From positions 1-64,000 of the forward strand of contig JAGXSG010000016.1 in assembly GCA_018333995.1 (NCBI GenBank): a stretch of DNA of 64,000 bases, given 5' to 3'. Both the position numbers and the translations under genes were made by a program. The notes below the pieces were generated by a model that made no database searches, had not been told where the DNA came from, and was given only the letters and a program-made list of their open reading frames with translations. Origin of the DNA: Clostridiales bacterium (lineage in GTDB: Bacteria; Actinomycetota; Coriobacteriia; Anaerosomatales; SLCP01). Shown piece by piece: positions 1,631-29,175 of the stretch; within the stretch, counting starts at the first letter, position 1; the number at the start of each line of letters is the position of its first letter.

Positions 1631-1704
1631 GGTTTCCAACCCCTCTTCTCAGTGACACCGGACCCCTGCCTGACCGCTTTCGAAAAGGACTGAAAACGAC
1701 AGAT

Positions 1705-1899
1705 CTAATGGGCCGGTCTCACCACTGGCTCCCCGCCGCCCTGCTCGGTGACCGACATGATGTCGGCGACGGATCTTAGCCTCCCTGATGATTCGGGCAC
1801 AGCCCGAACCATCACGATGGGGTTTTCAACGGGTGTCGTGCTCGGGCTACCTTCTTCAGCGTATACCCGCAGTCCGAGGAAGACACTGGTGAGCGCCAT
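1705..1899 (-). CDS. Possible small hypothetical protein downstream of lon
   Basis: A 64-codon frame begins 47 bases after the lon stop on the same strand. It has an N-terminal hydrophobic segment (MALTSVFLGLRVYA) followed by a polar tail. I recognise no family. No convincing ribosome binding site precedes the ATG, and third-position GC is lower than in neighbouring genes, so it may be spurious or decaying. If real, it could be a short exported peptide translated from the lon transcript. Confidence 0.3.
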   Translation of the reverse strand: MALTSVFLGLRVYAEEGSPSTTPVENPIVMVRAVPESSGRLRSVADIMSVTEQGGGEPVVRPAH

Positions 1900-23550: not shown

Positions 23551-24323
23551 ACGAGGCCTGCCTCACTCGCCCCCAGGAGTATCGCGCTCACGGCAAGCAT
23601 GAACGCGAAACCCGTGCGGAGCGTGCGCTCTCCCGCGGCTGCGGTAAAACGCGCACCGATGATCGCTCCGGGAACCGCTCCGATCGCAAGAGCGAGCGCA
23701 AGCCCCGGATCAACGTTGCCGAGCACCCAGTGCGCGACCGCGCCCGGTACCGCAAGGACGGCGATAGCGACAAGACTTGTTCCCATCGCGACCTTGACGC
23801 GGTATCCCAGCAGCCGATGCAGGAGCGGGACAAGCACGATGCCGCCCCCCAAGCCGAGAAACCCCGAGAAGAGTCCGGTCACGATGCCGAGAAGAGCGAC
23901 GGTTGCCGGACGCCGGAGAGCCGGAGCACGCGTTACGCTGGAGTCATCGCCCTGCCCCCCGCGAAGCACCATCACGGCGGCACAGAGTATCATGAAGGAG
24001 TTGGCAACGATGACGGCAGTCCCGCCCGCGTGCACGGACGCCTGCGCGCCCGCGGCGGACGCGATTACTCCCCACGCCCCAACCGCGACGCCCGTCTTCA
24101 CGTCCGCGTGCCCACTGCGCATGTGCGCGATCGCTCCCGCGGCCGAGACAGGCACAATCGAGGCGAGTGCGGTCCCGACAGTCACGAGGGCCGGGTACCC
24201 GAACACAAGCCGGAGCGCTGGGATCGTAAGCACGCTTCCGCCCACCCCGAACGCGCCTGAGAGCATACCGGCGATCAGGCCGGTGAACACGGTCGCAAGT
24301 GAAAGCGTAAGCGTGAGCATCAC
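23547..24323 (-). CDS. TSUP-family permease (TauE/SafE)
   Basis: A 258-residue membrane protein with about eight helices in two similar halves. Each half carries the family signature (SGAFGVGGSVLTIPALRLVFGY and SGFLGLGGGIVLVPLLHRLLGY). TSUP proteins move sulfite, sulfoacetate or other organosulfur anions; the substrate here is not determined. It starts within the last bases of the glycosyltransferase gene. Confidence 0.93.
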   Translation of the reverse strand: MMLTLTLSLATVFTGLIAGMLSGAFGVGGSVLTIPALRLVFGYPALVTVGTALASIVPVSAAGAIAHMRSGHADVKTGVAVGAWGVIASAAGAQASVHAGGTAVIVANSFMILCAAVMVLRGGQGDDSSVTRAPALRRPATVALLGIVTGLFSGFLGLGGGIVLVPLLHRLLGYRVKVAMGTSLVAIAVLAVPGAVAHWVLGNVDPGLALALAIGAVPGAIIGARFTAAAGERTLRTGFAFMLAVSAILLGASEAGLV

Positions 24324-25582
24324 CGCTTCGTGTCGTGGCGAATCTGAGGGAACCGGCCGGTGATCGCCGCGCGGTCTACTCGGCGCTCACCAGAGAACAG
24401 CGATCGTAACGCTATATCGTCCCAGATCCGATCGAGAAACATCGGCCACCTGCGCTGAAAGTCGAAGTAGTTATGACAGTTCTGCCGAGCGTACTCGGAC
24501 GCGTCTTTGACGGCCGCGCGAGCGACCCTGAAGTACCGTCCTCCCTCTGAGCGGCGGGAGACGCCTCGAAGCATCGCGGTAGCGACCGCGCGCCACACCA
24601 CAGACGACGACATGAACCGGCCAGGATAGGGCTCCATTGACTCGGGCGTCACCTGTCTCAAATCGACCTGCGACTTGGCGAATTCGATCTTGCGGTGCTC
24701 GTAGACGAAGCGGTACACGTCCTGGCGGAACTGTAGCGCTTCACTGGGAAGCCGAGGCGGACGGTGAATCACCGACCACTCTCCGTCGAGGAACACGTCA
24801 CCGCCGTGCATGCGGACGTTGATGACATAGTCGATGTCCTCGCCCCGCACCACCCATGGGTCAAACGAAACGTTGCAATACATGTCTCGATGAAGCGCGA
24901 GGCATCCTCCAAACGCGACAGTCGATGGCGTCATCCTCGGCGGACGATCGACCATCGCGAGAGCCTCATTGAACGCGTCCTCCCGGCGCCAGAACATGTC
25001 CGCCCATTGCGGGTCAGCGTGACGCTGGTAACGGCCATCCTCATCGGTGTAGTAGCCGGTCTTCGCCAAAATCGCCTTGCCGTCGTCCAGCCGCATCCCC
25101 AGACCCTCAAACGCCTTCGTGAAGAAGGCCGGGTCATCGATGATCTGGTCGTCGTCGATGAACAAGACCGCCTCGCTCCCAAGCACCGCGGCGGCGATGA
25201 GGCCGACGTTACGCACGGCGCCGTACCCCACAAGATTCACTCCAGGAATCATGTCCGCGAACTCGAGTTGCTCCATGCGGCGATGAAGCGATCCGATCTC
25301 AGCGGGACCAAACACGAACGCGTCCATGCCCGGGATGTCCGCGAGAATCTCACGCACGCGGTCCTCCGCCGCGTGTTCGATCGAAGGGTCCGTCGCAGCC
25401 ACGGTGACTACAACCCGCTCGACTCCCTCGACCTCCTGCAACGAACGCAAACACGCTGGCAGCGTACCGTCTGAATCGATTGGTGTGGGGTGGTCGTATA
25501 CGGCGAGCACGTTGTTTGGCACCCTGTTGCGGCGCCCCGTCCAGAAGGTAGGGATGATCACGCACGGATTCACGCTGGCCAC
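24320..25582 (-). CDS. Glycosyltransferase, GT-A fold (family 2-like)
   Basis: A 420-residue soluble protein. The N-terminal nucleotide-sugar domain starts NPCVIIPTFW and has the metal-binding FIDDDQIID at about residues 151-159. An acceptor-side motif VRGEDIDYVINVRMHGG follows at about 255, and then a helical C-terminal part. It could glycosylate an envelope polymer or compatible solute; I cannot name the product. The GTG start overlaps the Sec-DsbA gene by 13 bases. No membrane helix is evident. Confidence 0.85.
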   Translation of the reverse strand: MASVNPCVIIPTFWTGRRNRVPNNVLAVYDHPTPIDSDGTLPACLRSLQEVEGVERVVVTVAATDPSIEHAAEDRVREILADIPGMDAFVFGPAEIGSLHRRMEQLEFADMIPGVNLVGYGAVRNVGLIAAAVLGSEAVLFIDDDQIIDDPAFFTKAFEGLGMRLDDGKAILAKTGYYTDEDGRYQRHADPQWADMFWRREDAFNEALAMVDRPPRMTPSTVAFGGCLALHRDMYCNVSFDPWVVRGEDIDYVINVRMHGGDVFLDGEWSVIHRPPRLPSEALQFRQDVYRFVYEHRKIEFAKSQVDLRQVTPESMEPYPGRFMSSSVVWRAVATAMLRGVSRRSEGGRYFRVARAAVKDASEYARQNCHNYFDFQRRWPMFLDRIWDDIALRSLFSGERRVDRAAITGRFPQIRHDTKR

Positions 25583-26322
25583 CTCTGCGTCTGCGGTGTC
25601 TGCGCCAAAGTTGCATCGGACCGCTCCGATTCTACCGCTTCACCCTCCTCGTGCACATGGAGACCGCATCGCTTGAGCGCCTCGCGGATGACGGCAGCCG
25701 GACGCGAGCCGATGATGAGCTCGTTGCACACCAGCGTCGCCGGCGTCGCGTCGATGCCGATATGCAGCGCGACGTGCCTAAACTGATGGAGCCTCTCGTC
25801 GTAGCGGTCTTCGCTCCAAGCCAGCCGGGCGGCGGCAGAATCGACACCGGCGCCTTCGGCCACCGTCAGCAATATCTCCTCATCGCCGATATCGAGACCC
25901 TCGGCAAAGTACGCCGCAAAGATCGAGCGGTGGACCGCTTCGTGAATCTCGCTCCCGTGGTCGCGAGCAAGCTCGGCTAGCGTGTGCGCCTTGTGCGTGT
26001 TGGGCAGAAACTCCGGCAGCACAAGCGGAAAACCTTCCTTCTTCGCAACCCGGCGCAGGTGCTCAGAGACACGGTCTGAGTGTCCGGCCGCCTCAAGTTC
26101 ACTCACACGCCAGCCCTCAAGAGGCATCGAAGGCCTGAGCTCGAAGGGCACAAGCACCATCTCAAAGTCCGTATCCACGCGCACCGTGTCCAACCGGAAC
26201 TGGTCGACGTAGCAAAACGGTCAAGTGTAGTCGAAGAACACGAGCACGCGGGGGCGCTCGAGCACCGGTTCTGCGTGTCCGGATCCGACATCAAGACCGT
26301 GGCCCTCACGCTCCAGCGTCAT
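25570..26322 (-). CDS. DsbA/FrnE-like thioredoxin-fold protein with in-frame UGA, probable selenoprotein
   Basis: Read through one TGA, the frame gives 250 residues of a DsbA-fold oxidoreductase (FrnE-like). The active site is FFDYT-U34-PF-C37-YVDQFRL: UGA at 26221-26223 stands where the family has the first Cys of CxxC. Downstream, the helical insert (HLRRVAKKEG, ARDHGSEIHEAVHRSIFAAYFAEG) and cis-Pro loop GIDATPATLV are intact, with no other stop. Start: ATG at 26322 with GGGAG just upstream, 16 bases after amrS. The protein lacks a signal peptide, so it is cytosolic, probably a thiol-disulfide or peroxide-linked oxidoreductase. A simple nonsense mutation is the alternative, but the exact codon position argues strongly for selenocysteine. 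No sel genes lie in the window. Confidence 0.85.
26190..26223 (-). promoter_or_regulatory. Candidate bacterial SECIS element
   Basis: Starting 17 bases after the UGA, the mRNA can form a small hairpin: CCAG (26203-26200) with UUGG (26193-26190), with apical loop UUCCGG; if the G-U closing pair opens, the loop begins with GU, as SelB-binding loops do. Distance from the UGA is within the range of bacterial SECIS hairpins. The stem is short, so this is a weak prediction. Confidence 0.4.
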
Positions 26323-26338
26323 TTCACTCCCTGCTCTG

Positions 26339-27352
26339 TCATTCGACGATCCCGAGGTTGTGTCCACACGAGACGCAAACGCCCGCACGCGTCGCGCGCC
26401 TGATGATGGTGTACCCATCGCGGACGATCGCGCGCGCGCCGCACGCGGGACAGACGGTGTCCCCAACACCTGTCTCTAACACATTGCCGATGTAGATGTA
26501 GTCGAGTCCCTCCTCGGCGCCGATCTCGGCGGCGCGTCTCAACGTCTCGACCGGCGTTGGTTCGAGATGCGCGAATTCGAGACACGGGATGAACCGTGTC
26601 ACGTGCCACGGTGTGGCGGTTCCGAGCGACCGCGCCACAAACCGCGCGATTGCCCGCAACTCCGTGGCGGAGTCGTTGATCGTGGGGACGACATTCGTGA
26701 CGACCTCGACATGCATTGACCACGCCTCTTGAGCGTAAACCGCCATGTCGAGCACCGGGCCTCCCGAGGGAACCTTGCACAACGCTCGGTATGTGGCGTC
26801 TGACGCCCCCTTGATGTCAACACGCCACACATCAATATGCTGCCCGAGATAGTCAAGTCCGTCGCTCGTGATGTAACCGTTTGTGACCATCACCGTGTAC
26901 AATCCGCTGGCCTTTGCGATCCGGGCGACGTCATGGACGTACTCGGCCCAGATAACAGGTTCGTTGTAGGTGAAGGCGATGCCCGCGCAGCCGGAATTGA
27001 GCGCGCACTGGACGGCGTCATCTGGTGTTATCGCCTCGATCCGCACACCGTGCCCGGCACCCTTCTCCCTGCTGATTCGCCAGTTCTGACAGTGACCGCA
27101 CGACATCGTGCAGCCAACGCTCCCCACTGAATACACCGTCGAACCTGGGTGGTAATGGAACACGGGCTTCTTCTCGATCGGATCGACCGCGGCCGAAGAG
27201 ACGCACGCGTACGTAGTGGCGATGAGCGTGCCTCCGTCGTTCCTCCGCACGCCGCACACACCGGTACGGCCTACAGCGATCAGGCACCGGTGGGGACAGA
27301 GCAGGCAACGAACGCACGTGTCTTCCGGTCGCCAAAGATCCGCGGTACGCAC
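26339..27352 (-). CDS. amrS: AmmeMemoRadiSam-type radical SAM enzyme (AmrS-like)
   Basis: A 337-residue radical SAM protein. The SAM-cluster motif is Cys81-x3-Cys85-x2-Cys88 (GCTMSCGHCQNW). An N-terminal cysteine set (Cys13, Cys16, Cys19, Cys23, Cys33) probably holds a further metal site or cluster, and the C-terminus has CPAC...CVSC. This matches the AmrS / pyruvate formate-lyase-activase-like family of the AmmeMemoRadiSam system. Its usual partners AMMECR1 and Memo are not adjacent. The biochemical role is unknown. Its end is 16 bases before the Sec-DsbA start and it begins two bases after the hydrogenase-like sensor, so all three are probably co-transcribed. Confidence 0.92.
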   Translation of the reverse strand: MRTADLWRPEDTCVRCLLCPHRCLIAVGRTGVCGVRRNDGGTLIATTYACVSSAAVDPIEKKPVFHYHPGSTVYSVGSVGCTMSCGHCQNWRISREKGAGHGVRIEAITPDDAVQCALNSGCAGIAFTYNEPVIWAEYVHDVARIAKASGLYTVMVTNGYITSDGLDYLGQHIDVWRVDIKGASDATYRALCKVPSGGPVLDMAVYAQEAWSMHVEVVTNVVPTINDSATELRAIARFVARSLGTATPWHVTRFIPCLEFAHLEPTPVETLRRAAEIGAEEGLDYIYIGNVLETGVGDTVCPACGARAIVRDGYTIIRRATRAGVCVSCGHNLGIVE

Positions 27353-27354
27353 GG

Positions 27355-29175
27355 TCAGCGCTCCTCGTGGCCGGGAGCGAGTCTCACTCGATCGCGCCCC
27401 TGTTCCTTGGCCCGGTAGAGCGCCCTGTCAGCGTCCTCGAACAGCACTTCGTGACTCGTCATGGCCGAGTGTGCCGAAGCCAAGCCCACCGAGATGGTCA
27501 CGGGCACGATCCCAGCGGCTTCCGCGCCGGCCGGCACGCGCAACCGGGAAACCGCGATACGCAACTTCTCCGCGACCGCGTACGCCGCGGTCTTGTCGAC
27601 GCCCGGTAAAATGATCGAAAACTCGTCACCGCCGTAGCGGACAGCGATGTCCGTCTCACGCAAGACGTTCTTGATCGTGTCCGCGACAGCGCGGAGCGTC
27701 GCGTCTCCCGTCGAGTGCCCATACGTGTCGTTGATCGCCTTGAATCCGTCGAGATCGAGCATGAGAAGCGAGAGCGACGGACCGTACCGGCGGAACCGGG
27801 CGAACTCGTTCACGAGCCGCTCGGCGAAGACTCGACGGTTCCACAGCCCGGTGAGCGGGTCGACGGTAGCAGACTCGCGCAACGCTGCCACCTGGTCTTC
27901 CAAGCCGCGAACGTGCATCGGGACGCACATCCGCCACTGGGAGGCCCCGGCGAGGACCGCCGCGGCGTGCTCCACACATGTCCGATAGCCACACGCGCCA
28001 CAATCGCGAGTCTCATCCCGGCTGGAAAAACCCCCGTCCCGCAAGGCGGCATCGATAGCCGCATCGTCGAAACTTAGCAGCGGCACCGGATCGGGCGAAA
28101 ACTCCCGGCGCACCTCAACGCCCGGAAGCAGCGTGAGCACCCTGCGTGAGGGAATAGGTGCTGTCCTGTGCTGCGTCAACTCGAATGTCCGCAGTGACCG
28201 CCGGGCGTAGCTCGACAGGTGCGCACCCATCGCGGGGCCGTCAACACAGCTCTCGCAGTAGAGCATGTCCACGACGCCAGGCGTTGTCTCACCGGCCTCT
28301 ATGGCGGCCAGCAGCCGGTCGACCGTAGCAAGTCCCCTGACCGTCACCACTCCTCCGGGCACGTTGTCGCGAGCTTGCAGCAACGTCCGGGGAAAGCCGT
28401 CGGTAAGCGAGATTTCCTTCCTGGCGGCCAGCGAGCGAGCCTGACTCCCGCCGGTCACTCCTTCGGTACCCGCTATGCCGCTCACCATGCTCTTGAGCTC
28501 ATCAAAGCCGATGACCGCGTCGATGGCGCCCGCAAACGCAATATCCGCATACTCGTCTTTTCGGGCGAAGCACGGCGACACGTAGACGACAGCGAGATCG
28601 GGACCGGCGTACATCTCGCGAACAAGACGTGCCTGCGCGATGTAGGGCGGGACGATCGGCGCGAGACACCCCGCAAGCGAAGGCCGGTACTTGCGTACCC
28701 ACTCCGTGACCACGGGGCACGTGGAGCGCAGCATCGGGCGGCGCGGCAACTCCGGTTCAGCGGAGGCCCACACCGTTTCGTACTCGACAGCCACCATTTC
28801 CTCGCCGAGAAACGTGCTCTCAACCGCATGGAACCCGAGTGCGAGGCACGCTTCTTCCACGCGCTCGGGCGTCGCGGGATGCATCGCCGCGGCAAACTCC
28901 GTCGCGAGCACCACTACGACCTTCGCAGAAGAGGCGAGCAAGCTCCGCACGCGGGGAACATCGTCCCTGACACGCATGCCGCCCGATCCGCACGCACCGA
29001 CGCACGCCCCGCACCTCACGCAGCGCTCCGTGACCACACGGGGGCTTCCGTCCGCGACACGGATCGCGCGTGCGACGCATACGCGCGCGCACACCCAGCA
29101 CAACTCGCACCCTGGCGGCGGATCGATGATCGTGATGCCCGTCGGGGCGTCTACGTGTTCGTAGCGCGTATCCAC
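27355..29175 (-). CDS. Ferredoxin / [FeFe]-hydrogenase-like sensor with GGDEF output
   Basis: A 606-residue multidomain protein. Two [4Fe-4S] motifs open it (Cys23/26/29/33 and Cys52/55/58/62). A hydrogenase large-subunit-like domain (about 85-340) follows, with altered H-cluster motifs: STCP (Cys153), SPCFARKDE (Cys202) and YCESCVDG (Cys307, Cys310). Next is a four-cysteine Fe-S domain (Cys392/395/400/417), a coiled coil, and a complete GGDEF domain: GGDEF at 515-519 with I-site RETD at 506-509. It probably makes cyclic di-GMP in response to redox state or H2. Group C sensory hydrogenases usually end in a kinase or phosphatase, so GGDEF output is unusual. GTG start with GGGAG upstream. Confidence 0.9.
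   Translation of the reverse strand: MDTRYEHVDAPTGITIIDPPPGCELCWVCARVCVARAIRVADGSPRVVTERCVRCGACVGACGSGGMRVRDDVPRVRSLLASSAKVVVVLATEFAAAMHPATPERVEEACLALGFHAVESTFLGEEMVAVEYETVWASAEPELPRRPMLRSTCPVVTEWVRKYRPSLAGCLAPIVPPYIAQARLVREMYAGPDLAVVYVSPCFARKDEYADIAFAGAIDAVIGFDELKSMVSGIAGTEGVTGGSQARSLAARKEISLTDGFPRTLLQARDNVPGGVVTVRGLATVDRLLAAIEAGETTPGVVDMLYCESCVDGPAMGAHLSSYARRSLRTFELTQHRTAPIPSRRVLTLLPGVEVRREFSPDPVPLLSFDDAAIDAALRDGGFSSRDETRDCGACGYRTCVEHAAAVLAGASQWRMCVPMHVRGLEDQVAALRESATVDPLTGLWNRRVFAERLVNEFARFRRYGPSLSLLMLDLDGFKAINDTYGHSTGDATLRAVADTIKNVLRETDIAVRYGGDEFSIILPGVDKTAAYAVAEKLRIAVSRLRVPAGAEAAGIVPVTISVGLASAHSAMTSHEVLFEDADRALYRAKEQGRDRVRLAPGHEER

Follow-up and report, generated by a model that had tools for sequence, protein, structure and literature searches.

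An in-frame UGA at the active site of a FrnE-like gene from the Coriobacteriia is very probably read as selenocysteine

The minus-strand frame at positions 25570-26322 of the window, i.e., the whole 64,000-nt stretch analysed here (contig JAGXSG010000016.1 of assembly GCA_018333995.1, a Clostridiales bacterium placed by GTDB in the Actinomycetota; Coriobacteriia; Anaerosomatales; SLCP01), is judged from its sequence to be a selenoprotein gene with a probability of about 0.96. This call, which agrees with the original prediction of a probable selenoprotein, is made because the genome encodes selenocysteine (Sec) genes and a tRNA-Sec, because UGA is exchanged with Cys at one and the same codon among orthologues, and because a conserved SECIS hairpin follows that codon. 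Decoding of the codon-34 UGA as Sec is almost certain. It is also highly probable, taken jointly, that this decoding proceeds through SelB and the hairpin and that the product is a 250-residue, probably cytoplasmic FrnE-like thiol-disulfide oxidoreductase.

The reading frame and its signals are as follows:
25570-26322, minus strand: FrnE/DsbA-like gene with predicted Sec, 250 residues, ending in a usual TGA stop at 25570-25572
26221-26223, minus strand: in-frame TGA, codon 34, the U of U-P-F-C and almost certainly selenocysteine (TGA in 21 and Cys in 17 orthologues)
26327-26330, minus strand: ribosome binding site GGAG, 4 nt 5' of the ATG

Between 26322 and 25573 on the minus strand, this TGA is the sole interruption of the open frame. 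The original prediction had placed it at the first active-site Cys, and both coordinates and motif are borne out, with U34-P-F-C37 as the UxxC active-site motif. Flanks of DsbA/FrnE type in one frame had likewise been proposed, and the coding sequence is indeed conserved on both sides of the UGA as a single DsbA-family protein: in a profile match of the read-through translation, PF01323 (DSBA) spans residues 26-217 (E 1.6e-29, 103.5 bits vs a gathering score of 25.6). The start at 26322, for which a good ribosome binding site had been claimed, does lie behind the GGAG, and the AmrS gene ends upstream of it at 26339. The standard ORF list contains just a 207-aa fragment that starts at a TTG 3' of the UGA, as had been foreseen, and routine annotation would lose the active site of the enzyme here and in at least 20 relatives.

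When 400 genomes of the class were searched, orthologues (43-64% identity) came up in about 38 genomes, all from the window's own order, and the rest of the class yielded nothing closer than distant relatives. Of the 38 orthologues with a readable active site, the window's included, 21 carry TGA and 17 Cys at codon 34, which always lies within [FY]-D-Y-[AT]-[U/C]-[PQ]-F-C; the alignment that had been proposed as a check thus matches U with Cys at exactly this position. Since TGA recurs at codon 34 in 20 other genomes of the order and Cys occupies it in 17, its presence is not a matter of chance or sequencing error. On the protein tree the Sec/Cys label changes at least five times, compared with 12.3 times when labels are shuffled, so that the state follows descent; gain and loss are not distinguishable from these counts. 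All eight sampled family mates carry Cys, leaving the window's genome as the sole Sec keeper among nine sampled family members. Loss of the machinery does not explain this change to Cys, because selA is kept in six of the eight (no match was found in the other two, whose assemblies are 84-85% complete). The orthologue set is therefore a clean natural experiment, with near relatives that use either Sec or Cys in genomes most of which still make Sec.

Two kinds of additional recoding were considered and rejected: TAG codons in the matches from G064, G134 and G106, like the second TGAs of G008 and G090, turned out to be the usual stops at gene ends, and at the active site these five have Cys or a single Sec codon. 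A scan of genome contigs returned distant relatives only. Elsewhere in the phylum, four distant homologues (L104, L105, L107 and L108; 32-35% identity) have TGA within UPFC/UPYC and hairpin sequences unrelated to the one described here.

Numbered from the U of the UGA, the hairpin comprises:
26188-26208, minus strand: SECIS hairpin region, nt 16-36, in which the window gene pairs nt 17-22 with nt 29-34
26193-26205, minus strand: SECIS core GACCAGUUCCGGU (nt 19-31), conserved, all 21 Sec genes agreeing at 11 of 13 positions
26196-26201, minus strand: apical loop AGUUCC, inside the core

A SECIS-like hairpin had been suggested as possible, and its conservation in all 21 Sec genes bears this out. 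Nucleotides 19-31 read GACC[A/G]GUUC[A/C]GGU in every one of them, wobble positions included, with third codon positions 21, 24, 27 and 30 invariant. Among all five-codon windows of the Sec genes, third-position conservation peaks at codons +6 to +10 (1.94 bits vs a gene mean of 0.64), which lie outside the top ten such windows in the Cys genes; only one of the 17 Cys genes retains the loop GUUC. Directly following D-[QR], every Sec protein has Phe, and the Cys proteins, with one exception, have His, Ala, Ser, Asn, Pro or Val. In the order-wide register, nt 16-22 partner with nt 29-36 around a bulge at nt 32, and 89.8% of cells pair compared with at most 45% for slid partners; the pair 18-34 shows a double change from C-G to G-C in four genes, which are related, so perhaps through one event. 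The window gene has a G-G mismatch in this register, and a one-base shift into a register without the bulge still gives six pairs, with a core pair probability of 0.93-0.94. The SECIS limits tested were a loop of 3-9 nt with G in the first two positions, a spacing of 16-37 nt and a stem of 4-16 bp, and the window hairpin falls within them (a 6-nt loop with G as its second base, a spacing of 19 nt and a 6-bp stem). Its energy is -6.1 kcal/mol bare and -9.7 kcal/mol with flanks (nt 4-45); stability relative to shuffled sequences is unexceptional in the window gene (z -0.10), and stability alone was for this reason discarded as evidence for a SECIS.

Traces of the hairpin persist in some Cys genes. 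Four f1 Cys genes (G038, G056, G106 and G035) keep the stem sequence with the loop GCAC instead of GUUC, and a fifth gene (L074, in G148) combines a Cys codon with an intact SECIS-like loop, CAGUUC, probably after a recent change from Sec to Cys. Judged by their sequence, the stretches in all five look like the remains of lost SECIS elements. Because the window genome has the exact order-wide core, retention of Sec there with separate losses in its relatives appears more likely than regain. Such remains, together with the mixed Sec/Cys set, open the way to direct tests of Sec retention vs loss at a single site.

A search for sel genes, which the original prediction had proposed, found selA, selB and selD as well as a tRNA-Sec(UCA) in the window's genome (G000; 1.95 Mb, 99% complete):
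C2:7345-8700: selA, 605 bits, above cut-off
C2:5415-7301: selB, 380 bits, above cut-off
C2:8873-9790: selD, 364 bits, above cut-off

The three genes adjoin one another on contig C2, and the single tRNA-Sec, with anticodon UCA, is on C19. SelB and Sec-tRNA(UCA) would decode the codon-34 UGA as selenocysteine, with insertion directed by the hairpin, whose apical loop starts 19 nt 3' of the UGA. The selD locus (L098, C2:8774-9805, minus strand) itself has an in-frame UGA, in KAG-U-AAK, pointing to a Sec-containing selenophosphate synthetase, and a formate dehydrogenase alpha-like gene (fdhA; L111, C21:47920-48702, minus strand) with UGA in EHQARV-U-HSS is a further selenoprotein gene. With the window gene, at least three genes of this genome therefore have UGA at an expected Sec site.

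The positions of likely importance to the protein, with invariance counted in 29 aligned orthologues, are:
26212-26214, minus strand: Cys37, the resolving Cys of U-P-F-C, invariant in alignment A1
25741-25743, minus strand: Pro194, candidate cis-Pro (Thr-Pro) of the DsbA fold, with T193 and P194 invariant
25726-25728, minus strand: Cys199, extra cysteine, invariant
25666-25668, minus strand: Cys219, extra cysteine, invariant

The AF2 model (pLDDT 86, pTM 0.80) has a thioredoxin-type fold with a helical insert, and a DsbA-superfamily fold is a confident prediction. FrnE is nearest by both sequence and fold: the best PDB match in Foldseek is FrnE of Deinococcus radiodurans (5co3, E 2.7e-12), followed by Streptomyces SCO1869 (3gl5) and HCCA isomerase (2imd), and phmmer matches FrnE 5cp1 (E 5.6e-11). 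No NCBIfam model fits the group, the lone match scoring 19.4 bits against a cut-off of 190, and the window protein is the sole PF01323 protein found in its genome. Inspection by eye found no obvious signal peptide, on which basis the protein is probably cytoplasmic. Taken together, model and sequence make a Sec/Cys thiol-disulfide oxidoreductase of the cytoplasm the most likely product. The attack on substrate disulfides or oxidised thiols would come from Sec34, with Cys37 resolving the mixed selenenylsulfide, and regeneration of the active site may be assisted by the two other invariant cysteines, Cys199 and Cys219.

AmrS (TIGR04337) and, at 27355-29175 on the minus strand, a FeFe-hydrogenase large-subunit domain with ferredoxin-type clusters fused to a GGDEF domain are the neighbours that the original prediction had named, and rightly so; the fusion protein is possibly a redox- or hydrogen-sensing diguanylate cyclase. 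A c-di-GMP-II-GAG riboswitch (RF03169, 64.2 bits) lies in the same window at 1702-1793, minus strand. Downstream of the Sec gene, at 24320-25582 on the minus strand, is a gene for a 420-aa protein (PCVIIPTFWT...) without a Pfam match at E values up to 5, a member of an uncharacterised conserved family whose proteins share about 58-83% identity order-wide and are encoded in this block without exception.

With regard to decoding, it is very improbable that the TGA is a nonsense mutation or an assembly error in a Cys gene, which would then be dead or mis-sequenced, with translation, if any, starting at the TTG 3' of the UGA. The eight Cys-carrying family mates and the truncated form delivered by standard ORF calling would fit this account, but the same hairpin accompanies the TGA in the 20 other genomes, the window gene retains GACCAGUUCCGGU where its Cys relatives have lost the loop part, and the frame is otherwise open, with as much as 60% identity to its orthologues. 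That the host reads UGA as another residue (Trp or Cys), or reads through it generally, is the least probable of the alternatives: the frame would be open under such a code, and nothing more speaks for it, whereas UGA is the ordinary stop ending both this gene and AmrS, the genome holds tRNA-Sec(UCA) with selA, selB and selD, and the UGA is linked to a hairpin loop that disappears where the codon is Cys.

Other alternatives accept selenocysteine and differ in function. The protein could be a GST-kappa- or HCCA-isomerase-like enzyme in which Sec34 acts as the nucleophile, rather than a disulfide oxidoreductase, and the fold search did give strong matches to HCCA isomerase 2imd and GST-kappa 1r4w as well; we regard this as unlikely, since FrnE tops both the sequence and the fold matches and the full U/C-x-x-C is retained in every aligned orthologue. 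Somewhat more doubtful still is the redox pathway shared with the radical SAM neighbour AmrS that the original prediction had put forward. In most genomes with a DsbA-like gene, AmrS adjoins it, but the DsbA-like gene is one of eleven co-oriented genes that form a block conserved order-wide, and because the whole block is syntenic this adjacency is weak evidence of shared function. Moreover, AmrS and the downstream 420-aa gene are still adjacent in most relatives without the DsbA-like gene (roughly 60-170 nt between matches), and in G142 and G076 the locus contains the Sec gene but lacks AmrS, so that the block is stable but can do without the DsbA-like gene.

Like the published bSECIS consensus model (PMC13188914), the window hairpin has a loop of 6 nt in which a U follows the G at position 2, a 19-nt spacing and a 6-bp stem, but the bare hairpin misses the -7.5 limit and passes only with its flanks. 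FrnE of D. radiodurans is a proposed cytoplasmic disulfide reductase whose C-terminal CXXXXC, present in many but not all FrnE proteins, regenerates the active site (PMC8945050). The window protein resembles it (PDB 5co3, 5cnw, 5cp1) as its best sequence and fold match, with a CP[WF]C-type site and a predicted cytoplasmic location (PMC8945050), at about 23% identity; it differs in having Sec for the first Cys and in lacking the C-terminal CXXXXC, in place of which Cys199 and Cys219, 20 residues apart, are invariant. That these two regenerate the active site as CXXXXC does would be a guess by analogy.

An exact-word literature search on FrnE selenoproteins found none, and a broader search gave DsbA-like ones: UxxC selenoproteins of PF01323/COG2761 have been described from the Sargasso Sea in 2005 and later (PMC1088965, PMC1794560, PMC2398784, PMC5029168, PMC13188914). 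No name for the order-specific orthologue group was found in that literature. It may tentatively be proposed, as a minority possibility, that this is a distinct, undescribed FrnE-like selenoprotein group with four invariant redox positions (U/C34, C37, C199 and C219), in which a second thiol pair would relay electrons to the selenenylsulfide and which would be used order-wide with repeated Sec/Cys swaps while the Sec machinery is kept. The window group shares with the published DsbA-like selenoproteins (PMC1088965, PMC2398784, PMC5029168, PMC13188914) the family, the UxxC motif with Sec first and the mixed Sec and Cys forms, and is set apart from their descriptions by a conserved SECIS of its own and by the invariance of Cys199 and Cys219; UxxC selenoproteins of PF01323 being already known, the window gene adds one member and perhaps a new subgroup.
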